From Hanleya hanleyi (Eukaryota > Mollusca > Polyplacophora > Lepidopleurida > Hanleyidae): a DNA stretch of 64,000 bases. The stretch covers positions 18,233 through 82,232 of the forward strand of contig JAVTVY010020531.1 of NCBI GenBank assembly GCA_036873755.1, in the 5' to 3' direction. The translations under genes and the position numbers were made by a program. The notes beneath the pieces were generated by a model. That model was not told the origin of the DNA. It made no database searches and saw only the letters and a program-made list of their open reading frames with translations. This document shows, piece by piece, positions 16,303 to 37,325 of the stretch (the stretch's first letter is position 1; each line of letters begins with the position of its first letter).

Positions 16303-16750
16303 TTAGGCTGCGAAGCTGAAACTTTCCACACTGTATCACTGGTTCAAGTGCTACCAGAAAGTGTAACAAATTCCAAGATGGCGGCCATGACATCACCGTG
16401 ACATCATTTTTCAAAAATAAGACACTTAGCAGACGCTTTTTTCTGACCGATTTTTCCATTTTTTGATTTGCACAATTCGTTACTGACACTGCCTGGTAAA
16501 TTAGTAAATAATCATCTTACGTGAAATAAAATAATTTTGAGCGCTTTTACGAAGAAATCTTTCCAGTTACACCCTAATGTCATCCATTTTGAATTTACTC
16601 ATGAAGCTCTGCTCCGAATATTATGCAACAGGCTCAAAATAACCCCAGCATTACCATAAGCTATAACTGCACTAAGTTACAGCTCTGAGCGTTTCTTTAT
16701 TTTGGATCACATGGGAAAAGTTCTCTGGCACGGGAAGGGGGGGGGGGTCT
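16303..16750 (+). mobile_element. degenerate piggyBac-like MITE copy
   Basis: The sequence aligns by eye, in order, with the intact element at 21742-22334. Shared landmarks are the CTGAAA-TTCCACAC segment, the CCAAGATGGCGGCCATGA segment, CATTTTGAATTTACTCATGA, the GGCTCAAAATnACCCC segment and a terminal G run (16737-16747). The left terminal repeat is not recognisable, so this copy is truncated or diverged. Confidence 0.65.
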
Positions 16751-21741: not shown

Positions 21742-22334
21742 TTAACCCTATCTGGCCTGGGCGATTTGGGGTGTATCGCAGCATGTGGGGGGGGGGGTGC
21801 GGAAAGTGCCCGCCCTACACATTTTCTCTGCCACTGAGGCTAGAGCACTGAAATTTACCACACAGTATCTTGGGTTCAAGCTCTATCGGGAAATGTAAAA
21901 AACATCCAGAATGGCCGCCATGATGACATCACAGTGACGTCATCTTCTCGAAAGCCATTTTTCGGCCTTTTTGGGGTCGATTTTTCGAAATTTTCATTTT
22001 TCCGATTTTTCTCTCGAAAAAAATCAAATAAAATATAGAATAATTTGTTTTGCATAAATAAAATACTTTCAAGGCCTTTTATGCAAGGAAAATGTGAAAA
22101 ATGGAGCGAAAAATTGAAAAAAAAATTCGCGGATACCACATGGGCGCCATTTTGAATTTACTCATGATGCTCTGCCCGGGGGTATATGACAATAGGCTCA
22201 AAATGACCCCAATAACATAAGCTTTAAAGTCACCGAGTTTCATCCTCCTAGGTTTTGTCGTTTCGGAGCAGCAGAGAAAAGTTCCCTAGGGGGAGAACAC
22301 TTTCGCCCCCCCCCCCCAGGCCAGGTAGGGTTAA
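21742..22334. mobile_element. piggyBac-like MITE, intact ends
   Basis: The element lies between two TTAA tetranucleotides (21742-21745 and 22331-22334). Its ends are CCCTATCTGGCCTGGG and the complement of CCAGGCCAGGTAGGG, so TTAA-CCCTA opens and TAGGG-TTAA closes it. TTAA target sites with CCCT-starting ends are the hallmark of piggyBac transposons. About 45 bases inside the left end is a run of 11 G (21787-21797), and near the right end a run of 12 C (22306-22317). It has no transposase ORF. Related copies in this window are at 16303, 21040 and 32731. Confidence 0.85.
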
Positions 22335-23754
22335 CACCATATGGCATAATCAAAAATGTCACGGTTCCTTGGTTAGCTGTTAGTAGTATAGAAAGGTGAT
22401 ATTGAATCAACTTGACCTTTGACCTCTGGACCACAAGGCCGCTATAGTTCCGGCAAAGGTCAATGAGTGCAAGTGTACAGACCTGTATATGTGGTTAGGA
22501 TGCGCAGGTGTATGACGTCACTTCCGGTAGGCGTGAATCGGGCGTGACCTCTCCGGATGTATTCATCCGCGGTGATGCGATCTGGCGGTGATGCGATCTG
22601 CTTCCGCGGACAGAAATAGTCCCAAATACGCTTAGAGCCGGGGGAAATTCTGCGGCAATCTTCAGGGGCAAGAGGGGTCCCTAGTGGGACGATTGGGTCG
22701 AGGGAGGTGTCCCCGTTCCTCCAGGGCGATCCAGTCATGGGTGGGTGCATGTTTCCACAAAAAAAAGATATAAAAAAATAAATAGAAAAAAAACTAAATG
22801 AAATAAAAGGCGGAACACAGACTTTACCCCTACAATATACTCCTATCAACCCAAAAGGGATAATATCGGGCCTGGGTATGAATGGCTGACCTATATCTGG
22901 TATCGAATGATAGGAATGCATGTACTGATCTGTATCCCGTCCATCTTTACATCCGGGCCCTTGACTATATCCGGGTCTTCGCTTGAATGCATGTACTGAC
23001 TTATATCCATCAGGTCTTTGATCGTATGCATGTACTGGCCTGTATGTGATTCCCCGCGCACATTAACTGTGTCGTCTGCATAATGGAGCATTCATGAACA
23101 CTGGATTGCATCAGCCTTACATTCGGGAGTCTGGCCTATATCTGGGTCATCGGAGTTATATCATCCGGTGATTGAATGCATGTACAGACTTGTATCTGGG
23201 GTTTTTCCATTCACGTGATCAGAGGTCAATAAGCGTGAGTGTGGTTGTGTATGCCATGTGAATCGGGCGTGATAGCTGACCTATATTCGAGTCCTCGGTC
23301 TGGATCTTTGGAATGATAGACATGTACTGACCTGTATCCTTTCATCTCATCTTTACATCCGGGTACAGATCACTATAGTTCAATGTCAATTGAATGAATG
23401 ATAGGCATGTACTGACTTGTATGTGATTTCCCGCGCACATCAACTGTGTCGTCTGCATAACGGAGCATTCGTGAACACTGGATTGCATCAGCTTTACATC
23501 CGGGTACGGGAGGGGAGTGGGTGTATGTAAAAGTTTCTCCAGAAAAAATATAAAAATCGGAACACGGACTTTACCTCTACAATAGGGGAAAATCCCTATC
23601 AACCATATCCAAAAGGGTCTAATATCGGTCCCCTGGCTTAAAAGGTCAATAAGAGTCAATGTACTGACCTGTATCATTGATTGAATGAAAGGCATGTACT
23701 GACCTGTATCCTTTCATCTCGCCCATCTTTACATCCGGGTCCTTAACTGATATT

Positions 23755-24540
23755 AACTCACATTTAGTAGTATAAAAGCGCATTTCGAGCCCTATTGACC
23801 TAGCGGCGCAATGCACAGAGGATAGTATAGTAACAGTATACTCACTCACATTTAGTAGTATAAAAGAGCATTTCGAGCCCTATTGAATTTGCGGCGCAGT
23901 GCGCAGAGGATAGTATGGTGACATCTGGATTGGCTGTCTAAGAATCAATGAGCTGTCTGATTGGCTCTATTTCCGACCTAGCCATTGGTTGAATTCTCGA
24001 ACGTTCATTGGTCGAAATGATTTGCCCACACTTCCCAGGTTAATCTACAATCTCACCAAGCTCCCTATGGCAAACTACCATGTTAAATGAATTCCTATAC
24101 TATAACATGCACAAGTCAATGTACTGACCTGTATCATTGACTGAATGAAAGGCATGTACTGACCTGTATCCTTCCATCTCGTCCATCTTTACATCCGGGT
24201 CTTTAACTGATATTGACTATTATTTCTTAGTATGAAAGCGTATTTCCAGCACTATTGACCTTGCGGCGCAATGCGCAGGGACAAGTGGTTGCCATGGTGA
24301 CGCACATTATGCAACATTTAGTAGTATATAAGTGCATTTCGAGCCCTATTGACCTTGCGGCGCAATGCGCAGAGGATAGTATAGTAACAGTATATTGACT
24401 CACATTTAGTAGTATAAAAGCACATTTCGAGCCCTGTTGACAGTGTGGCGCAATGTGCAGAGGGTGGTAACAGAGGTCAATTTAGTAGTATAAAATCGAA
24501 TTTCGAAACCTATTGACCTTGCGGCGCAATGCAGTGAGTG
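23755..24540 (-). repeat. 90-bp repeat array, left arm
   Basis: About six copies, partly interrupted, of a unit containing TTTAGTAGTATAAAAG, CGAGCCCTATTGACC and TTGCGGCGCAATGCGCAGAG. The array is the mirror image of 27497-28372. A GTGA repeat follows at 24534-24574. Confidence 0.85.
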
Positions 24541-24574
24541 AGGGAGTGAGTGAGTGAGTGAGTGAGCGAGGCGT

Positions 24575-24935
24575 GCCCAACACCCGTGAGGCGTACTCAA
24601 CACCCGTCAACGCCCATCGCAATGCCTTAACGCCCGTCTCAACGCCCGACAACGCCAAGCTCAACGCTTCAACGCCGCAGTGAATTAACCCAAACGCTCT
24701 GATTTTCATGGAATTGTCACTAATTCATTGGAAATGCACTGACGCCCGTCAACACCCGTTGTTACGCATTAGCGCCCGTCTTAACGCCCGCCAACGCCAA
24801 GCTCAACGCTTCAACGCCCTGGTTATTTAGCCCAAAAGCTCTGATTTTCATGGAATTGTCACTAATTTATTGGAAATGCACTGACCACCGTCAACGCCCG
24901 TCATTGCGCGTTAACGCCGTAGTATAACGCCTTGG
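24575..24935. repeat. CAACGCCCGTC short-repeat block, left arm
   Basis: Many near-identical 9-11-mers (CAACGCCCGT, TTAACGCCCGTC) are interspersed with two copies of a segment containing TTTTCATGGAATTGTCACTA. The same block recurs at 25868-26180 and, inverted, at 26275-26405 and 27318-27500. Confidence 0.8.
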
Positions 24936-25024
24936 CGCCAAGATATAGACCGGAGAGAGGACAACAGCAATAAGAAGGATGACAGATGAGAGACCGACAA
25001 CAACAACAACAAGTTTTCATATAG

Positions 25025-25030
25025 TTTATT
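25025..25030 (-). terminator. poly(A) signal AATAAA for the minus-strand gene
   Basis: TTTATT on the plus strand reads AATAAA on the minus strand, about 185 bases after the stop of the second ORF. The mirror copy is kept at 27253-27258. Confidence 0.5.
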
Positions 25031-25214
25031 CTTCCCAATGTTACATCATACTCACGCTGGGGGAGCCGCGTTGGGTATGTTTACAATTCAAGAAGACTCT
25101 TGTCCAATCAGAGGCCGCCATTTGGCGCTGTATCAGTCATATTCGCTCTTGCCCGTTAAATGTATTCTCGGCTGCTCTTGTCCAATCAGAAGTCGCCCTT
25201 TCAGAAAGTTCCAT

Positions 25215-25448
25215 CTAAGCATCATCGGGCAGTTCAGGGTACTGTTCGGGCAGCATGTCCTGAAAGAGTTGTTTGCGCATCCTGATCGCATTTTCCATGG
25301 CCTCGGTGGGTGGAATCCCCATATCCTCTTCCAAGTAAGGCTTGGTCTTTATGATGGATATGTGCGTAGGGTCTCCTTTCGTTTCAAGCGGTAGTAAGGT
25401 ATACTGTTCATAGATCGCCATGACTGTTTTCCTGATGCACGGGCGCAT
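25215..25448 (-). CDS. 77-residue ORF downstream of the zinc finger ORF
   Basis: A small, acidic, unrecognised protein. If translation began at an internal Met it would start MAIYEQYTLLPLETKGD; the end is PEQYPELPDDA. It lies in the same frame as the upstream zinc finger ORF, separated only by a TAG and four codons, so it is either the C-terminal part of one roughly 199-residue protein made by stop readthrough (or broken by a nonsense mutation), or a separately translated ORF. No signal peptide or membrane segment is visible. A mirror copy on the plus strand (about 26831-27065) has a nonsense codon. Function unknown. Confidence 0.45.
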   Translation of the reverse strand: MRPCIRKTVMAIYEQYTLLPLETKGDPTHISIIKTKPYLEEDMGIPPTEAMENAIRMRKQLFQDMLPEQYPELPDDA

Positions 25449-25460
25449 TTGTGTGTATGA

Positions 25461-25814
25461 CTATTGTAAGTTATCCTGTCCAGCGTTCTCGATCGCTGCA
25501 GCGTGAGTATTGATAGCTGCTCTCACAATACGATCCCAGAAGGTAGGTTCTGCCTCACTTTCCTGGTATGTAGGCTGACTACCTGAGGTCACGCTCTCCG
25601 TATCAGTAGATAGACTCTCAGCAATCTCACTTTCGTGGGATGTAGGCTGACTATCTGAGGTCAAGCTCTCCGTATCAGTAGATAGACTCTCATCAATCTC
25701 TGTATTGGCTTCTTGTGCCTCGGAGTCTTCAATCCCATGTATATTTTTCTCGTGTCGCATCATATCGTAACGTCTGGTGAACGTGCGTTCGCAGTCAGAG
25801 CAAGCGTAAGCCAT
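25461..25814 (-). CDS. small single C2H2 zinc finger protein in palindrome arm
   Basis: A 117-residue ORF begins MAYACSDCERTF. Residues 5-26 form one classic C2H2 finger (C-x2-C-x12-H-x4-H), a likely nucleic-acid-binding module. It is followed by an acidic Ser/Thr-rich segment with two tandem 24-residue repeats (ESLSTDTES-T) and a C-terminal helix-like part starting FWDRIVRAA. An upstream in-frame Met at 25856 would add 14 residues. I prefer the Met at 25814 because a TATAAAAG at 25860-25867 (minus strand) would place the transcription start near 25834, downstream of the first Met. The ORF ends in TAG, followed in frame by the 77-residue ORF. It probably belongs to the palindromic element; one finger alone cannot define its function. 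Confidence 0.6.
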   Translation of the reverse strand: MAYACSDCERTFTRRYDMMRHEKNIHGIEDSEAQEANTEIDESLSTDTESLTSDSQPTSHESEIAESLSTDTESVTSGSQPTYQESEAEPTFWDRIVRAAINTHAAAIENAGQDNLQ

Positions 25815-25859
25815 ATTGACGGTTGAACGTCGACTGTGCGGGTTTTGGCAATACACTTG

Positions 25860-25867
25860 CTTTTATA
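25860..25867 (-). promoter_or_regulatory. TATA box of the minus-strand zinc finger gene
   Basis: TATAAAAG lies on the minus strand 46 bases before the preferred start codon. The mirror position in the right arm (about 26411-26421) reads CTAAAAAAG, so the box is lost there. Confidence 0.55.
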
Positions 25868-26185
25868 GACAGTAACGCCCGTCAACGCTTAGCTTCACGC
25901 TTCAACGCCTTGATGAACTAGCTCAGAAGCTCTGATTTTCATGGAATTGTCACTAATTCATTGGAAATGCACTGACGCCCGTCAACGCCCGTCGTCACGC
26001 CTTAACGCCCGTCAACGCCCGTCGTTACGTCTTAACGCCCGTCACAACGTCCGTCAACGCCCGTCGTTTCGCCTTAACGCCCCTTTCAACGCCCGTCAAC
26101 TCTTAGCTTAACGCTTCAACGCCCTGGTGAACTAGCTCAGAAGCACTGATTTTCATGGAATTGCCACCAATACATCGAAATGCAC
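25868..26185. repeat. CAACGCCCGTC block next to palindrome centre
   Basis: Tandem CAACGCCCGTC-type 10-mers with two copies of the TTTTCATGGAATTG segment, lying upstream of the minus-strand gene. The mirror image is much shorter (26275-26405), so the array has expanded on this side or contracted on the other. Confidence 0.75.
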
Positions 26186-26270
26186 TGACGTCATTTTCGA
26201 GCAGCGCAGGGGTCAAAGGTCACTTCCAGTCACGTGGTCAAAGGCCACTTCCGATCACGTGACCGGAAGC
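26186..26270. promoter_or_regulatory. promoter-like centre of palindrome
   Basis: Within 85 bases lie TGACGTCA (26186-26193, the full CRE consensus), GGGTCAAAGGTCA (26210-26222, a DR1 nuclear receptor element differing from AGGTCAAAGGTCA only at the first base), CACGTG (26231-26236), TCACGTGA (about 26254-26261) and CCGGAAG (about 26263, ETS type). It is the space between two divergent gene copies and could be a bidirectional promoter. Motif matches are seen; function is inferred. Confidence 0.45.
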
Positions 26271-26469
26271 GCACAGTGTCGGGCGTTAAGCCGTAACGAC
26301 GGGCGCTGACGGGCGTCACAGCATTTCGATGTATTTGTGGCAATTCCATGAGAATCAGAGGTTCTGAGCTAGTTCACCAGGGCGTTGAAGCGTTTAGCTA
26401 AGCGGGTGTTACTGTCTAAAAAAGCAAGTGTATTGCCAGAACAAGCACAGTCGACGTTCAACCGTCAAT

Positions 26470-27065
26470 ATGGCTTATACTTGCTCTGAGTGCGAGCGCA
26501 CGTTCACCAGACGTTACGATATGATGCGACACGAGAAAAATATACATGGGATTGAAGACTCCGAGGCACAAAAAGCCGATACAGAGATTGATGAGAGTCT
26601 ATCTACTGATACGGGCAGCTTGACCTCAGATAGCCTACACCCCACGAAAGTGAGATTGCTGAGATGCTATCTACTGATACGGAGAGCTTGGCCTCAGATA
26701 GTCAGCCTACATACGAGGAAAGTGAGGCAGAACCTACGTTCTGGGATCGTATTGTGGAAGAAACTATCAATACTCACGCTGCAGCGGTCGAGGACGCCGG
26801 ACAGGATAACTTACAATAGGCATACACACAAAAGCAACCCTGCATCAGGAAAACAGCCATGGCCATCTATGAACAGTATACCTGACTACCGCTTGAAACG
26901 AAAGGCGACCCTACGCACAGGTCAATCATGAAGACCAAGCCTCACTTCGAAGAGGATATGGGGTTACCACACACCGAGACCCTGGAAAATGTGATCAGGA
27001 TGTGCAAACAACTCTTTCATGACATGATGCCCGAACAATATCCTGAACTGCCCGATGATGCTTAA
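26470..27065 (+). pseudogene. broken mirror copy of the zinc finger gene and second ORF
   Basis: This is the right-arm counterpart of the minus-strand pair. It starts MAYTCSECERTF with the C2H2 finger intact. A 4-base deletion at about 26632 shifts the frame relative to the left copy. The TAG at 26817-26819 is shared with the left copy, and the second ORF then continues recognisably but meets TGA at 26883-26885, where the left copy has TTA. It ends PELPDDA at 27065. The TATA box is also lost. The chance reading frame after the shift runs to 26931 and is not meaningful. Confidence 0.75.
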
Positions 27066-27252
27066 ATCACACCGAGCAAAGATGGAACTTTCTAAAAGGG
27101 CGACTTCTGATTGGACAAGAGCAGCCCTGAATACATGTAACGGGCAAGAACGAATATGACAGATACAGCGCCAAATGGCGGCCTCTGATTGGACAAGAGT
27201 CTTCTTGAATTGTAAACATACCCAACGCGACTCCCCAGGCTCCATTGGGGAG

Positions 27253-27258
27253 AATAAA
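27253..27258 (+). terminator. poly(A) signal AATAAA, right arm
   Basis: Mirror of the signal at 25025-25030, about 190 bases after the remnant's final stop. It is followed by a TTG repeat matching the CAA repeat of the left arm. Confidence 0.4.
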
Positions 27259-27317
27259 CTATATGAAAACTTGTTGTTGTTGTTCTCTCATCTGTCATTC
27301 TTGTTGTTGTTGTTGTT

Positions 27318-27500
27318 GTTGACGGGCGTTGACGGGCCTCAATGCATTTCCAATGATTTAGTGACAATTCTATTAAATCAGAGCTTTTGGGCTAATTCAC
27401 GAGGGCATTGGAGCGTTGAGCTTGGCGTTGGCGGGCGTTGAGACGGGCGTTAAGGCGTAACGACGGGCGTTGACGGGTGTTGAGACGGGCGTTGAGCGTT
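27318..27500. repeat. GACGGGCGTTG short-repeat block, right arm
   Basis: Inverted counterpart of 24575-24935: repeated GACGGGCGTTG, with one copy of a segment containing TTAGTGACAATTC. Confidence 0.75.
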
Positions 27501-28372
27501 ACTACTAAATGTGAGTCAATATACTGTTACTATACTATCCTCTGCGCATTGCGCCGCAAGGTCAATAGGGCTCGAAATGCGCTTTTATACTGCTAAATGT
27601 GAGTCAATATACTGTTACTATACTATCCTCTGCGCATTGCGCCCCAAGGTCAATTGGGTTCGAAATGCGCTTTTATACTACTAAATGTGAGTCAATATAC
27701 TGTTACTTTACTATCCTCTGCGCGTTGCACCTCAAGGTCAATAGGGCTCGAGATGCGCTTTTATGCTACTAAACGTTGAGTGTTAAGACGGGCGTTGTTC
27801 ACGCCCCACGGGCGTTGGGCATGCCTGACTCCCTCACTCTCTCACTCACTCACTCTCTCACTCACCAATGTTAGTACGTCCATGCGTTAAAAGTCAATAG
27901 GGCTGGGAATGCGCTTTTATACTACTAAATGTGAGTGAATATACTGTTACTATGCTATCCTCTGCGCATTGCGCCGCACGGTCAATAGGGCTCAAAATGC
28001 GCTTATATACTACTAAATGTGAGTGAAATACTGATACTATACTATCCTCTGCGCAATGCGCCGCGAGGTCAACAGGGCTCGAAATGCACTTTTATACTTC
28101 TAAATGTGAGTCAATATACTGTTACTATACTATCATCTGCGCATTGCGCCGCAAGGTCAATAGGGCTCGAAATGCGCTTTTATACTGCTAAATGTGAGTC
28201 AATATACTGTTACTATACTATCCTCTGCGCATTGCGCCCCAAGGTCAATTGGGTTCGAAATGCGCTTTTATACTACTAAATGTGAGTCAATATACTGTTA
28301 CTTTATTATCCTCTGCGCGTTGCACCGCAAGGTCAATAGGGCTCGAGATGCGCTTTTATGCTACTAAATGTG
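27497..28372 (+). repeat. 90-bp repeat array, right arm
   Basis: About eight units of about 90 bases containing CTACTAAATGTGAGTC, ACTATCCTCTGCGCATTGCG and GGTCAATAGGGCTCG, interrupted at 27780-27890 by a GACGGGCGTTG and CTCACT segment. Three consecutive units at 27500-27775 recur almost unchanged at 28095-28370, so a block of about 275 bases was duplicated about 595 bases apart. Confidence 0.85.
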
Positions 28373-28771
28373 TGCCCGGATGTAAAGATGGACGGGATAC
28401 AAGTCAATACATGCCTTTCATTCAATCAATGATACAGATCATTACATTGACTTGTGCATGTTAGAGTATAGGAATTCATTTAACATGGTAGTTTGGCATG
28501 ATGAGCTTGGTGAGATTGTATATTAACCTGGGAAGGGTGGGCAACTCATTTGAACCAATGAACGTTCGATAATTCAACCAATGACTAGGTCGGAAATAGA
28601 GCCAATCAGGCAGCTCCTTGATTCTTAGACAGCCAGTCCAGATATAGGTCAACAAACGTACCCAGATGTAAGGCTGATGCAATCCAGTGTTCACGAATGC
28701 TCCGTTATGCAGACGTCACAGTTGATGTGCGCTGGAAATCACATACAAGTCAGTACATGCCTATCATTCAA

Positions 28772-29410
28772 TCAAAATCACGGATGTAAAACCAGACATT
28801 CCCCAGATCGGATGTAATGTAACCAATAGTATCCGATAGAAGTACCCGGATGATAACAACAATGTCACCCTACCGTAGGTACCCCAATATCCAGACCTAT
28901 TAGGATGAATGGACGGAGTACAATTGCCTGTAACACACGAAGGAGGACAAGTGATTGTAAAACAGGTCTGTACATGCATTCCTAAACCAAAGACCCGGGT
29001 GTAAAACCAGACATTCCCCAGACCGGATGTAATGTAATCAATAGTATCCGATAGAAGGACGCGGATAATAATGATAAAAACAAGGTCACCCTACCGTAGG
29101 TACCCCAAATCCCCGACTTATTAGGATGAACGGACGGAGTACAGTTGCCTGTAACACACGGGTGACAAGTGATTGTAAAACAATTCTGTACATGCATTCC
29201 TAGACCAAAGACACGGATGTGAAACCAGACATTCCAGAGGCCGGATGTAATGTAACCAATAGTATCCGATAGAAGAACCCGGATGATACTGATAAAACAA
29301 GGTCACCCTACCGTAGGTAACCAAGTCCCCGACCTATTAGGATGAATGGACGGAGTACAATTGCCTGTAACACACGAAGGAGAACAAATACCCGGTTGTA
29401 AAACAAGGTC
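28772..29410 (+). repeat. about 215-bp tandem repeat, three copies
   Basis: The landmark ACCAGACATTCC recurs at 28791, 29005 and 29224. Each unit also has ATAGTATCCGATAGAAG, GTCACCCTACCGTAGGTA and GAATGGACGGAGTACA. It occurs only in the right arm of the palindrome. Confidence 0.85.
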
Positions 29411-29603
29411 ATAAGTCCCCGGATGTCAAGTACATGAAGAACCCGGATGTAGGAAACACGCCCGATTCACGCCTGTACCTGCACATCCTAACCCCAGATA
29501 CAGAGTAGTACACTTGCACTCATTGACCTTGCCGAAACTATAGCGGTCTTGCGGCCCAGAGGTCAAAGGTAAAGTTGACTTAGTATCACCTTTCTATACT
29601 ACT

Positions 29604-30203
29604 GCTGTTCAACTGGCAGAACACAGACGAATATGCTTTATTGAACTATCATATCTGAGGATTGGGGTAACCTCTTTACAATACACCCTTTTTATAGTAT
29701 TATATTTGGTAATATTTGCGAGGGAAGGCAAATCGTGTACCTGGTCATATTTTCTGGCTTTCCCCTGTATACGTGCACATTATAAAAAGTTACATTTCCG
29801 GACAAATATAATATTTGATTACTGAAACTAATTGTGAGGGCCTTTGATACTTAACGGAAATTCTCTGCACCAACATGACCCTAGTGGAAGAAGGGAGATC
29901 AAACCCTTTTCAAATTAGGCTATAGCTGCCGGCTTTTGATTTCATGCTCAATATAGCTGCCAGTTTGTATCCACCCTGTACAATTCCTACTCATTAAGGT
30001 CGCCCCAATTCCCAATTTTCCCCACCTCCTACACTCGCCATCCCTCGTGCATTATTGGGTTGTCATATTCATTTTGCTTCACAAGAAATCAAATTGTGTG
30101 CAGAGTTTTTTTTTCAAAACACAAATATTCGATATTATCCAAAGAAATCTTGCATTAAATGTAAGAACATGTCTTTGTCAGACTGTTTTGCTGTCTTTTT
30201 CCA
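29604..30203. other. intergenic and 5' region of the esterase gene
   Basis: No repeat or gene recognised. The last bases (TGTCTTTTTCCAG, ending at 30204) look like a 3' splice site, so a 5' UTR intron may end just before the start codon of the esterase gene. Confidence 0.4.
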
Positions 30204-30218
30204 GATCGACATTTCCGA

Positions 30219-32484
30219 ATGGCGAACCTTTGGAATATCTGTTTGTCGTGTATATTGTCAATTGTGGTGGTTTCTGCCGTAGAAGAGACGGTGAACACAA
30301 CAAGTGGGTTTATCATGGGAACCCGAGTCCAGAATACAGCCATCATCAAATTCCTAGGTATACCGTATGCAGAGCCCCCTGTCAGAGAACAGCGCTTCAA
30401 GCCACCGGTAAAAAAGACCCGGATGTCTGAGATATTTAACGCTACAGTTGATGGTTTCTCTTGTCCACAGATGCCTAATCTCTCCGGCGACGACTTAGGA
30501 AGCCAGTCTGTCATGAGTGAAGACTGCTTGAATCTAAACATTTTTGCCCCAGTGAAGGCTTCGAAGAGCGAGCCACTATCGGTTATGGTCTGGATATACG
30601 GGGGAGGTTATTTAACTGGATCTGCTGCCTCCTATGATTCCACCGTTCTAGCGGAATTGAATGACGTCATCGTTGTCGTGATCAACTATAGGATTGGGAT
30701 TCTGGGATTTCTTAATACCATGGACGATAGTTCCATCGGTAACTTTGGTCTTAGAGATCAGTGTTTGGCTCTACAGTGGGTCAACGAAAACATAGAGGAG
30801 TTTGGTGGAAATACCAGCAGCATAACCATATTTGGCGAATCTGCCGGTGCAGGAAGTGCGACACAGCTTACAATGGCTGCCAGCTGTCACGGCTTATTTC
30901 AGAGAGTTATCGCGCAAAGTGGAAGTCCCTTGGCGCCTTGGGCCTACAACGCAGATCCTCTCAAAACTGCCACTGAGCTAGGAAAGCGAATGGGTTGCCC
31001 GACCGACACAACATCTTCACTCGTAAAATGTTTACGTGAGAAGTCTACTGACGAAATAATAAAACATCAAAATGGTATTTACACTGTTTTCACGGGTTCA
31101 TCTTGGGTCCCTACCTACACGAGTGACTTTTTCACCTTCGTACCAAAACGGCTTCCAATGTGGAAGGGTATACCTGTACGCAACAAAATGAACGAATTTG
31201 ATCTGATGACAGGACTAAATATGGAAGAGGGTGAATTATTTTACGAGGGTTTTTTGGCCCTACTAAGAGCGAAAGGCGTAATTCAGGACAGAACCGATGA
31301 TCTCCGTTTTGCATATCTCAACCAGACACTGACACAGATCGCACATATAATGTTACCTGGGAACACCGACCGAGTCGACCAGTTACTTCCTTCTTTGTGG
31401 TTCCAGTATACAGACTGGCATAATCCCCATGACAACTTCACCAATTCTAAAATGTTTATTGAGCTGTTGGGTGATTTTATGTTTCATGTCAGCTCTGTGC
31501 AATTTGCTCGATTACACTCAGAGTTTGGGCCTTTACAAACGGGAGACAACTCTGATACTAGCAAAACATATTTTTATCGTCTCAAGCCGCGGGGTAGTTG
31601 GCTGACCACTAATCCCTGGACGGTTGGGGCTTCCCATGGGGACGACATATCTTTCCTTTTTGGGCATTTACAGAACAAACTCGTCAACTCTACTCTGGAA
31701 GAGAGAAATCTCAGTTACGTGATGATGGAGTACTGGACCAATTTCGCCAAGTCTGGGTGAGTTTCCAAAGAATATGTATCGGACCCAGATGGATGCTTTG
31801 TGTTTCTCCTCAAAGTTTACATTTGTTGTGTATACTAGCTCTTAAACTCTTTCGAATTGTAGCCAATGTCATAAATCCATCGGGTAACGTTTATTGAGGT
31901 GACAATTATTGAGTAGTAAGATTCGGCACTGTTCAACATTTATATAATTAGGTTTGTCTGTCACAAGATGGTATATTGTTATATTTCACTAAACATGAAA
32001 CTGGATCAACGTCTATATGACAAGTGTATGTAAGGAAATGATGGCTAAACTGCCCATGATATGTCAATCATTTAACCCATTTATTTGTTGATGGCGAACG
32101 AAAATAGCAACCTATCGTCCAAGTATACTAGTATATGTTTTCCATTTCAGAGATCCCAACGAACCTTCTAAACGTTACATCATGACCAAATGGCCAACCT
32201 ACAGTCTGCAGGCGGAGGAATACATCGAACTCGATGTCGACATGACACGTGACTCTATCGGCCAACACCCGTATGCCAGGAGAGTATCCTTCTGGAATGA
32301 CTTTATACCGGAACAAGTGAAGCTGATTGAGAAGCAAGTATCTGTAGTGCAGAAACCTTGTGACACTAGTACTGACACTGGCCCGGCTTCGTCTGCTGTT
32401 AACGTCTATACACACACTTATACCACTCTGGTTGTCATATTTTTTGGACTAATATCAAGTATCAGATATGGTAGCTCAGAATAA
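30219..32484 (+). CDS. cholinesterase/carboxylesterase-like protein, two exons
   Basis: Exons 30219-31756 and 32151-32484 encode 623 residues, the usual length of an alpha/beta-hydrolase-fold type B carboxylesterase/cholinesterase. Residues 1-20 form a signal peptide. The oxyanion loop YGGG is at 127-130; the nucleophile elbow GESAG at 206-210 gives Ser208. Glu337 (MEEGE) and His473 (ASHGDD) complete the triad. Cys82-Cys103 and Cys260-Cys271 fit two conserved disulphides; the third cholinesterase disulphide lacks a partner. Eight N-glycosylation sequons are present. The stretch before SEDCL lacks the Trp that binds choline in acetylcholinesterase (Trp84 in Torpedo), so the substrate may be a non-choline ester. 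The C-terminus ends in a hydrophobic segment (about 604-617) suggesting a GPI or membrane anchor. The start is chosen for the signal peptide. Likely enzymatically active; exact substrate unknown. Confidence 0.92.
31757..32150 (+). other. intron of the esterase gene
   Basis: The donor GTGAGT starts at 31757 and the acceptor TTTCCATTTCAG ends at 32150. Splicing joins GG to A, giving a Gly codon, and continues into the Asp-Pro-Asn stretch and the WPxY/YIxLD/FWN motifs typical of this family's C-terminus. Confidence 0.9.
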
Positions 32485-34380: not shown

Positions 34381-35324
34381 AAGGGTCCAGCGCACTATTA
34401 AAATTTACATTGGCGGCAATGTTAAAAACTGTTAACGTAATTGCATATCCTCGATTGATTAATTAAGTCTCGACTTCCATATTTCGGCCAGAAGTACTTT
34501 AATTGAAGTACTACAACCGGACAGATTTCTTGACGGGGGTCGCCCATTGAAATTTTGAGTTATGCGCGCTCCTGCAAATGACGTCATAATTTTGGCTTTT
34601 TTCTCTGCTTTCAGAAAGCAGTGCACAGGTACCCAAATAGTCCCTCTTAGCAACTCCATATTAGGCCTTGAGTTAAAATCAACATCACAGCGGAACTAAA
34701 CACATACCATACTCCAATCACCTACCACTGGCCTTCAATTATTCCTCGCAACAGACTGGAAAAAATATTGAAAACAATTCACCTCTCCGGCAGAGGTTGC
34801 CTAAAGGTGTTAACGGATCGGCACTATTTTTAATAGTGGTCTGGTACCTACTAGAGTAGGTAATTTTGCTCAATCACCTCCAAACTATATGCATGGGTAT
34901 TCCTTGTTGACTGGCTAGAAAATGTGAGAAATTTCCGTGCGATTCGCTGAGCGGTTGACGAATTATGGGGCTTCGAATTCATGTACCACAACCTAAATAC
35001 AACACTTTTTCACTTCCTCAGGCAAATTCATAGGTCAACAATGTTATCATGTGTGACTCGAGCAGCCATCACCAGAGCCCCAAATAGTAATTACTAAGAT
35101 GCTACTCCCATTTGCCCACATTTCAACACCTGAAACGACCTCTTTAGCCTTTCTCATGAATTATGGTGATTTTTTTACAATGGTACCCCCAAAGCCGCTT
35201 ATTTTGGTCAATTTTTAGCCCACCATCATCAGATGGTGGGCTGTTTAAATCACTTTTCGTCCATGGTCCGTCGTCCGTCCGTCAGTTCGTCCTTCAGTCA
35301 GTCAGTCCGTCCGTAAACAATTCT

Positions 35325-37325
35325 TGTTACCGCAATTTCTCAGGAACTACTGCATGGATCTTTTTCAAATTTGGTACACAGGTTCCCCTTGGGGTCTAGT
35401 TGTGAAAGAAACCTTTTCTGGTCCGATTCGAAAATCCAATATGGCCACCAGGCAGCCATCTTGGATTTCCCCAGGAAACCTTGTTACCGCGATTTCTCCG
35501 GAACTACTCCATGGATCTTTTCCAAATTTGGTACACAGGTTCCCCTTGGGGTCTAGTTGTGCAAGAAACCTTTTCTGGTCCGATTCGAAAATCCAATATG
35601 GCCACCAGGCAGCCATCTTGGATTTCCCCATGAAACCTTGTTACCGCGATTTCTCAGGAACTACTGCATGGATCTTTTTTCAAATTTGATACACAGGTTC
35701 CCCTCGGGGTCTAGTTGTGCAAGAAACCTTTTCTGGTCCAATTCGAAAATCCAATATGGCCACCAGGCAGCCATCTTGGGTATCCCCATGAAAACTTGTT
35801 ACCGCGATTTCTCAGGAACTACTGCATGGATCTTTTTCAAATTTGGTACACAGGTTCCCCTTGGGGTCTAGTTGTGAAAGAAACCTTTTCTGGTCCGATT
35901 CGAAAATCCAATATGGCCACCAGGCAGCCATCTTGGATTTCCCCATGAAACATTGTTACCGCGATTTCTCAGGAACTACTGCATGGATCTTTTCCAAATT
36001 TGGTACACAGGTTCCCCTTGGGGTCTAGTTGTGCAAGAAACCTTTTCTGGTCCGATTCGAAAATCCAATATGGCCACCAGGCAGCCATCTTGGATTTCCC
36101 CATGAAACATTGTTACCGCGATTTCTTACGAACTACTGCATGGATCTTTTTCAAATTTGGTACACAGGTTCCCCTTGGGGTCTAGTTGTGCAAGAAACCT
36201 TTTCCGATCCGTTTCGAAAATCCAATATGGCCACCAGGCAGCCATCTTGGATTTCTCCATAAAAGCTTGTTACCGCGATTTCTCAGGAACTACTGCATGG
36301 ATCTTTTTTCAAATTTGGTACACAGGTTCCCCTCGGGGTCTAGTTGTGCAAGAAACCTTTTCTGGTCCGACTCGAAAATCCAATATGGCCACCAGGCAGC
36401 CATCTTGGATTTCCCCATGAAACATTGTTACCGCGATTTCTCAGGAACTACTGCATGGATGTTTCTCAAATTTGGTACACAGGTGCCACATGGGGTCTAG
36501 TTGAGCACGATACCCTTTCTCGTCCGATTCGAAAATCCAATATGGCCACCAGGCAGCCATCTTGGATTTCCACATGAAAATTTGTTATCGTCATTTCTCA
36601 GGAAGTACTGCATGGATCTTTCTCAAATTTGGTACACAGGTTCACCTTATGATCTAGTTGTGCAAGATACCTTTTTCAGTTCAAATTGAAAATCCAATAT
36701 GGCCACCAGGCGGCCATCTTAGATTTCCCCATGAAACTTTGTTATCGTGATTTCTCAGGAAGTACTGCCTGGATCTTTCTTAAATTTGGTAGACACGTTG
36801 CCCTTGTGGTCCAGTTGTGCAACGTACCTTTCTGGTCCGATTCCAAAATCAAATATGTCCATCACGCGGCCATCTTGGATTTCCCCATGAAACTTTGTTA
36901 TTGCGATTTCTCAGGAACTACTGCATACATCTTTATCAAATTTGGTACACAGCTTCCCCTTGTAGCCTAGTTGTGCAAGATACCTTTTCTGGTCCGATTC
37001 GAAAATCCAATATGGCCACCAGGCGTCCATCTTGGATTTCCCAATGAAACTTTGTTATCGTGATTTCTCAAGAAGTACTGCATGGATCTTCCTCAAATTT
37101 GGTACACAGATTCCCCTTGTAGCCCAGTTGTGCAAGATACCTTTTTTGGTCAGATTCGAAAATCCAATATGGTTGCCAGGTGGCCATCTTGAATTTCCCC
37201 TTGAAACACTGTTATCTTGAATTCTCAGAAAATATTTCATGGATCTTTCTGAAATTTGGTACACAGGTCCCAGATGGGGCCTAGTTGTGCAAGATAGCTT
37301 TATCGGTCCGATTCGAAAATCCAAT
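35325..37325 (+). repeat. 157-bp tandem repeat array, about 13 copies
   Basis: The unit contains CTACTGCATGGATCTTT, AAATTTGGTACACAGGTTCC, GGGGTCTAGTTGTGCAAG and GCAGCCATCTTGGATTTCCC. Central copies are nearly identical; copies from about 36580 on are progressively more diverged, as expected of array edges. The unit is not a multiple of three and ORFs slide through all frames, so the predicted peptides are artefacts. Confidence 0.95.

Follow-up and report, generated by a model that had tools for sequence, protein, structure and literature searches.

A palindromic, gene-carrying transposable element with Maverick-like ends in the genome of Hanleya hanleyi

Structure of the palindrome

The DNA described here is a 64,000-nt window from the mollusc Hanleya hanleyi (assembly GCA_036873755.1, contig JAVTVY010020531.1, positions 18,233 to 82,232, forward strand), and all coordinates are those of the window. 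Positions 22382–29603 form an imperfect palindrome of 7222 bp. When this segment is aligned with its own reverse complement, 86% of its bases are paired at 85% identity, and the score of 3737 compares with −3232 to −3375 for five shuffled sequences; the palindrome described in an earlier, sequence-only reading is thus confirmed, with exact coordinates. The two arms differ by 4–10% across seven alignable blocks. The element's longest near-perfect palindrome (26246–26271) lies no more than about 6 bp from the innermost axis of symmetry (26252), and a length such as this is unremarkable, being matched in 8 of 100 shuffles. The axis falls within a central 85-bp module (26190–26274, plus strand) that is present in other copies and includes a AGGTCAAAGGTCA-like site at 26210.

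The ends of the element are exactly AGTAGT and ACTACT. The left terminal inverted repeat (22382–22509, plus strand) starts with AGTAGTATAG and matches the right end at 87.5%, and the right repeat (29477–29603, minus strand) has CTATACTACT as its last bases. Directly adjoining these ends is a perfect 6-bp target site duplication, GCTGTT, at 22376–22381 on the left and 29604–29609 on the right, a direct repeat that the earlier reading did not include. A AGGTCAAAGGTCA site is located 32 bp in from the left end (22413–22425, minus strand), and another, with one mismatch, close to the right end (29560–29572, plus strand). Further in, 11 modules of the ATGTACTGACCTGTAT type (up to three mismatches; 22473–24169, plus strand) all face inward; four are mirrored at 28397–28975, and the window has no others.

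Much of each arm is made up of tandem repeats. In the left arm, 88-bp units, each with an internal AGTAGTATA, occupy 23756–23923, with a second such array at 24314–24532, followed by a 10/20/142-bp array of the AACGCCCGTC type at 24596–24918 (all plus strand). The right arm has 88-bp arrays at 27500–27781 and 27893–28372 (both minus strand), and the 98% identity of 28095–28371 with 27500–27776 is the mark of a recent duplication within this arm. The mirroring of the short-repeat arrays, and of the poly(A) signals considered below, was noted earlier and holds. For a 218-bp repeat of 2.9 copies at 28745–29387, the tandem repeat finder listed no counterpart in the left arm. A supposed relationship between the first 60 bases of the element and the 88-bp unit was rejected, since 15 and 16 of 2000 shuffles scored as well and the match lost significance when the first 9 bases were omitted.

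The zinc finger gene

Each arm carries a copy of a zinc finger gene, and the copies face outward as previously proposed: the left runs from 25814 to 25215 on the minus strand and its mirrored partner from 26470 to 27065 on the plus strand. The left copy comprises one C2H2 finger, acidic repeats and a C-terminal half in a single frame, broken by an in-frame stop at 25461–25463 (minus strand). The right copy has the same stop, one additional stop and a 4-bp deletion. A TATA-box-like TATAAAAG (25860–25867, minus strand) precedes the left gene on its upstream side, and AATAAA poly(A) signals are found at 25025–25030 (minus strand, beginning at 25030) for the left gene and at 27253–27258 (plus strand) for the right.

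The sequence-only reading had assigned two ORFs to each arm. The finger gene stands, but the second ORF, rather than being separate, makes up that gene's C-terminal half: it follows the stop at 25461–25463 in frame, and a sense codon occupies that position in all 15 gene blocks aligned from other loci. The two ORFs together form a single gene of about 190 codons, interrupted by a stop in both arms of the window element.

Searches with the two ORFs as separate pieces reported no homologue among 5.8 billion proteins, the search lengths for the C-terminal half being such as to exclude full-length relatives. IMG/VR gave no match to the end sequence, the 88-bp unit, the two pieces, the whole protein or two ORFs from neighbouring copies; PHROGs gave just weak, unnamed matches (E of 0.02 or more), and among solved structures the only matches below E 0.4 were to the finger. 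Structure predictions for both pieces were of low confidence. A six-frame Pfam scan of the element, with stops read as X, found the finger and sub-threshold noise only, and no polymerase, integrase, ATPase, protease or capsid gene.

Copies at other sites

A search of the same genome with the element gave at least 188 matches, with 40 of 9280 candidates scored. Twenty regions were fetched, comprising three alleles or haplotigs (L009, L010 and L013) and 17 other loci. The insertion in the window is found on two further contigs, one of which, L010, contains the two arms complete with both ends and the flanking sequence on either side. This, together with the 4–10% divergence between the arms, argues decisively against an assembly fold-back, which had been raised as an alternative along with a local inverted duplication. 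The palindrome itself fits either, and it is all that does; the element's boundaries are common to other sites, and outward-facing gene pairs recur at the insertion sites L023, L026 and L012, so that an inverted duplication alone does not give the whole story. We regard an origin purely by local duplication or fold-back as in effect refuted.

Both ends were located at eight of the 17 other loci, making nine sites with the window. Target duplications agree at 6 of 6 positions in seven of these and at 5 of 6 in the other two, whereas a control that paired ends across sites gave a mean of 1.8 of 6 (maximum 5, n = 72). The AGTAGT hexamer is exact at 16 of the 18 ends, with a single change at one end each of L016 and L021; this agreement is partly due to selection, because the ends were located by a similarity scan against the first 20 bases of the window element, a procedure that leaves the duplications unaffected. 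The whole terminal decamer AGTAGTATAG is exact at just 12 of the 18. In L016, L021 and L026 a AGGTCAAAGGTCA site (up to one mismatch) lies 30–32 bp from both ends, and across the nine sites all 69 occurrences of AGTAGTATA point inward. Terminal repeats vary in length among copies, from about 0.1 kb up to repeats that hold the gene. These shared boundaries, recovered by the genome search that the earlier reading had suggested, and the 6-bp duplications at other sites support its proposal of a mobile element whose inverted repeats extend over several kilobases and contain genes.

Most of the fetched loci contain matches to the gene. Its reading frame is uninterrupted in L014, in L020 and in one of the genes of L026, and most of the copies read are broken. 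Pooled between copies, pN/pS is 0.35 in the C-terminal half and 0.65 in the N-terminal part, compared with 0.88–1.17 in shifted frames, and we conclude that the gene is under purifying selection between copies. Comparison of the two window arms with each other shows no selection (pN/pS 1.26 and 0.60). Two further ORFs, one resembling a Maverick ATPase in L019 and one a polymerase N-terminus in L024, were recognised by eye and confirmed by no tool, and are given no weight.

Relationship to Mavericks of the same genome

The H. hanleyi genome is rich in Maverick-type polymerase genes, with at least 164 matches to DNA_pol_B_2 (84 of 1723 candidates scored) and none in 14 control genomes. End letters were read for one Maverick, the C4967 element, of which the arms rather than the centre were read. 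Both of its ends start with AGTAGTATAG, as in the window element, and its polymerase gene lies inside 4.1-kb inverted arms of 89% identity. Its target duplication is imperfect, matching at 5 of 6 positions and only when two extra bases are counted to the left end. The C4967 end sequence matched at least 40 places (40 of 657 candidates scored), 39 of these 40 from base 1; among the scored matches it flanks a polymerase gene on its outer side in 13 contigs, and on both sides in C41214 and C28015. Between the window element and the Maverick arms read, nothing is detectable in common beyond the terminal decamer, so that no specific helper is identified.

In vertebrate Mavericks, the commonest end motif is (AGT)2//(ACT)2, target duplications are 6 bp, total length is 12.7–24.6 kb and terminal repeats are 46–1447 bp (PMC8097293). 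The window element shares the AGTAGT//ACTACT ends, the 6-bp duplications and the terminal inverted repeats with Mavericks, but at 7.2 kb it is shorter, its repeats of about 3.5 kb are longer, and in place of the Maverick core genes it has a different kind of gene of its own, one copy per arm. One might therefore see in it a decayed Maverick, a palindrome left by deletion from a single autonomous element and with no mobility of its own; the Maverick-like ends and target size, and the loss of every core gene, would fit. Elements built in the same way nevertheless occur at independent sites, each with its own duplications, and carry a gene that evolved under selection, from which it follows that the reduced form itself moved. 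The copies at multiple sites largely refute this explanation, which we consider very improbable.

FB and the sea urchin TU are foldback transposons, and the window element has the structure of this class, with long, internally repetitive inverted arms and a short centre. Variation in length between copies and the lack of a detected transposase are further points of likeness. In Tetris, a Mutator-like foldback element, target duplications are 8–10 bp and complete copies have no conserved ORFs (PMC4079207). The window family differs from Tetris in its duplications, 6 bp at seven of nine sites rather than 8–10 bp, and in a selected gene that in some copies is present once per arm; it differs from foldback transposons generally in having Maverick-type ends. 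Ginger elements, which have TGTNR ends and 4–5 bp duplications (PMC2836005), are likewise unlike it in both respects. If the element were instead a foldback transposon from one of the cut-and-paste superfamilies, such as Mutator or P, that had acquired AGTAGT ends and a 6-bp duplication by convergence, this would account for the shape, and for the failure to find a Maverick helper with common subterminal sequence. The identity of the element's terminal decamer with that of a local Maverick speaks against such convergence, which we think unlikely.

The likeness of its ends to those of the virus-like Mavericks in this genome leads us to conclude that the element is probably a gene-carrying hitchhiker on them; the likely interpretation is that it belongs to a multi-copy family of non-autonomous, foldback-type transposons dependent on Maverick/Polinton enzymes. 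Insertion by a Maverick integrase would explain both the target size and the ends, and the protein-primed Maverick polymerase may copy the element from its AGTAGT ends. The element's own protein could bind its DNA, perhaps at the subterminal sites, and so raise its copying or expression. We infer that strand switching or fold-back during the copying of a one-gene form produced the palindrome, with some one-gene variants resulting from later central deletions; alternatively, the order might have run in the opposite direction, with the repeats growing.

Palindromic defective genomes of protein-primed replicons, such as the adenovirus left-end palindromes and the yeast 'hairpin plasmid', offer a parallel. 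There too the end of a linear replicon is duplicated and mirrored, as expected if a strand folds back in the course of strand-displacement copying. The window family differs in being inherited, integrated in the genome and present in many copies, and its protein-primed copying is presumed. More tentatively, the element might be a Maverick satellite with a self-complementary genome. Copying by Maverick polymerase would start at either end, the displaced strand would form a hairpin needing only one type of end, and the element's finger protein, bound to the subterminal and central AGGTCAAAGGTCA sites, would give it an advantage over its helper; the Mavericks of this genome might use the same trick, each inverted arm carrying a polymerase gene.

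Implications

Parasites of mobile DNA are common, as virophages and phage satellites illustrate, and in the literature searched we found no Maverick satellite with a selected gene of its own. To our knowledge, protein-primed copying of Mavericks has never been directly shown, and this family lets one ask whether such copying leaves palindromes of this kind as its traces. With many natural copies that differ in the length of their inverted repeats, it also offers a direct route to the question of how an animal genome comes to contain, and to keep, long palindromes that carry genes.

Palindrome, ends and flanking sequence

In the window, 86% of the bases in 22382–29603 pair with their own reverse complement at 85% identity, bearing out the mirrored, reverse-complemented blocks proposed by the sequence-only reading. 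The block order is mirrored as far as the innermost listed pair, 26102–26190 and 26314–26402, and the seven alignable arm blocks differ by 0.04–0.10 (K80). The element has the ends AGTAGTATAG...CTATACTACT, the former being absent from the window outside the element, and the hexamer GCTGTT is repeated exactly in both flanks. Equal 6-mers turn up in 95 of 200,000 randomly drawn position pairs from the window, which makes a chance origin of this duplication unlikely. The window contains 11 copies of the motif AGTAGTATA against an expected 0.32, all of them inside the element and facing inwards.

Another motif, AGGTCAAAGGTCA, is a plausible candidate binding site. At up to one mismatch, 53.9 kb of element sequence contains 14 copies and 20.5 kb of flanks from the eight other loci none; with two mismatches allowed, none is present in the window outside the element. 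In four of nine elements it lies 30–32 bp from both ends.

A MITE-like element of ∼590 bp (21742–22335) stops about 40 bp to the left of the palindrome; its inverted ends are 21 bp long (GTTAACCCTATCTGGCCTGGG), and TTAA may be duplicated beside them. Adjoining the palindrome, at 30165–31760 on the plus strand, is a carboxylesterase-like open frame of 531 codons (Pfam E 8e-129), whose nearest protein among the matches listed comes from a chiton (only 44%), so that a mollusc is the probable host. A 157-bp tandem repeat (TRF) occupies 35323–37325, and from it a strong, steady GC skew continues to the window end (35323–64000), in sequence that is perhaps satellite-like.

Copies and target duplications

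The first 1.6 kb of the element has at least 188 matches in the genome (2.48 Gb, 52,793 contigs; 40 of 9280 candidates scored), and copy numbers are lower bounds. Twenty matching regions were fetched, comprising three alleles or haplotigs and 17 other loci. L009 matches the left flank of the window at 99.8% over 425 bp, the right flank falling outside its stretch; L010 has both window flanks, the left one split into pieces of 95% and 89% and the right one at 97%; L013 and L023 have their flanks in common (91% and 97%). These common flanks identify L009, L010 and L013 as the alleles or haplotigs. The target duplication in L010 reads GCTTTT and GCTGTT.

Both ends were located in eight of the 17 other loci, by a scan with the window's first 20 bases at up to 5 mismatches in which the outer or best pair was taken from several candidates. 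Truncation, nesting, divergence or a length beyond the fetched stretch may explain the nine loci in which fewer than two ends were located. Over the eight loci and the window, the target duplications match at 6/6 positions in seven of nine and at 5/6 in two, compared with a mean of 1.8 of 6 (maximum 5, n = 72) for left against right flanks of different loci. Of the 18 ends at these nine sites, 16 carry an exact AGTAGT hexamer and 12 an exact copy of the decamer AGTAGTATAG.

The zinc finger gene

Each arm carries one outward-facing gene with a single weak C2H2 finger, at Pfam E values of 1e-4 (left) and 2.2e-4 (right) that fall below the curated cut-off; no match at a meaningful level was obtained for the protein part beyond it. 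The divergent finger genes first read from the sequence thus stand, whereas the two separate ORFs assigned to each prove to be one frame, parted by a stop common to both window arms. This in-frame stop likewise terminates the left gene in the allele L010; the 15 other aligned gene blocks all have a sense codon there. From its ATG the frame is open over its full length in L014 (192 aa), L020 (189 aa) and one gene of L026 (189 aa); the remaining 12 blocks are broken or have no start.

For the N part, pooled pN/pS between loci is 0.65, for the C half 0.35, and in shifted frames 0.88–1.17, based on 78 non-independent pairs among 13 blocks from different loci, broken copies included. Between the two window arms the values are 1.26 and 0.60 respectively, so that no constraint is visible after the arm duplication.

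Variation in architecture

Terminal repeats measure about 0.1 kb in L021, 0.4 kb in L025 and 1.3 kb in L014, three copies with a single gene apiece, and in L016 reach 2.3 kb, up to the end of the gene. The repeat of L017 (one end found) includes the C half of the gene, its second copy being truncated. In L011, little palindromic overall (29%), an internal inverted repeat covers the gene C half and does not run on to the ends; L026 is 38% palindromic by the same measure, yet its inner arms extend 1.7 kb at 89%. L015 combines a single gene with an additional inner inverted repeat, L012 (one end found) has three gene copies, one truncated at its start, and L022 consists of degraded pieces.

In the window, L026 and L023, two long gene copies face outward, the right one of L023 being interrupted. 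An 85-bp central module (26190–26274) is nearly full length in seven of 13 loci compared (the alleles L010 and L013 included), partial in two and absent from four, and also sits in the central spacer of L023 and L026. The two-gene form with this centre is therefore present at three insertion sites, and either moved as a unit or forms anew, time after time, at one and the same position. Central deletion of the two-gene form may have given rise to the one-gene copies that lack the module. Because 88-bp units pair across the arms in places (in a tree of mixed support), we take their array to be older than the arm duplication; a later 277-bp duplication (98% identity) lies within the right arm.

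Other open frames accompany some copies. On contig C52471, which has the window's left flank, long frames between gene and end, inside the arm (L009:1522–4546, minus strand), look by eye like a non-LTR retrotransposon. An ORF of ∼146 codons at L024:3275–3712 (minus strand) has at least 151 genome matches (48,730 first-look candidates, 150 scored), most of those listed with at least one internal TGA; its relatives form outward-facing pairs on contigs C52266 and C49876, which suggests another gene-bearing palindrome family.

Mavericks in the same genome

For vertebrate Mavericks, PMC8097293 gives (AGT)2//(ACT)2 as the commonest ends and 6-bp duplications for intact elements, and PMC10294476 describes Mavericks in all mollusc genomes analysed, among other groups. 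In this genome the polymerase domain DNA_pol_B_2 is matched at least 164 times (84 of 1723 candidates scored); 14 control genomes have no match. Among the matches listed, contigs C4967, C41214, C28015 and C17501 each carry a pair of polymerase genes separated by more than 5 kb, outward-facing in all four cases.

The C4967 element, identified as a Maverick by its polymerase and ends (outer parts only), has AGTAGTATAG at 16472 and 33958. The arms have a 4.1-kb part at 89% that includes the polymerase, and another 0.3 kb at 85%; the element's flanks, TAGGCGTT and TAGGCCAA, match at 5/6 positions if two bases are assigned to the left end. AGTAGTATAG is absent from 43.7 kb around 12 other polymerase loci, where 1.5 kb on each side is too short for such ends. 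At least 40 places match the 288-bp C4967 end (40 of 657 candidates scored), and all but one of these 40 matches start at its first base. Among the matches listed, this end stands outward of polymerase genes on 13 contigs, two of which (C41214 and C28015) have it on both sides; the other 11, with one side each, are C4967, C738, C18910, C48396, C33419, C34881, C28590, C46428, C36721, C17511 and C4519. Some pairs of such ends, 5–8 kb apart and on contigs with no polymerase among the matches listed (C30352, C37869 and C1976), make further short derivatives likely. An ORF at L019:1091–1828 (minus strand) overlaps a piece of the finger gene; its likeness to the end of a Maverick packaging ATPase was seen by eye and confirmed by no tool.

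Since the joining enzyme sets both target size and ends, a Maverick integrase would be the likeliest agent inserting the element. The element is without these enzymes and would thus depend on a helper; that selection has maintained a gene in such an element is as expected of a satellite. The C4967 Maverick also has a gene in both inverted arms, which suggests that such gene-bearing arms are produced by the mode of copying rather than by the gene.
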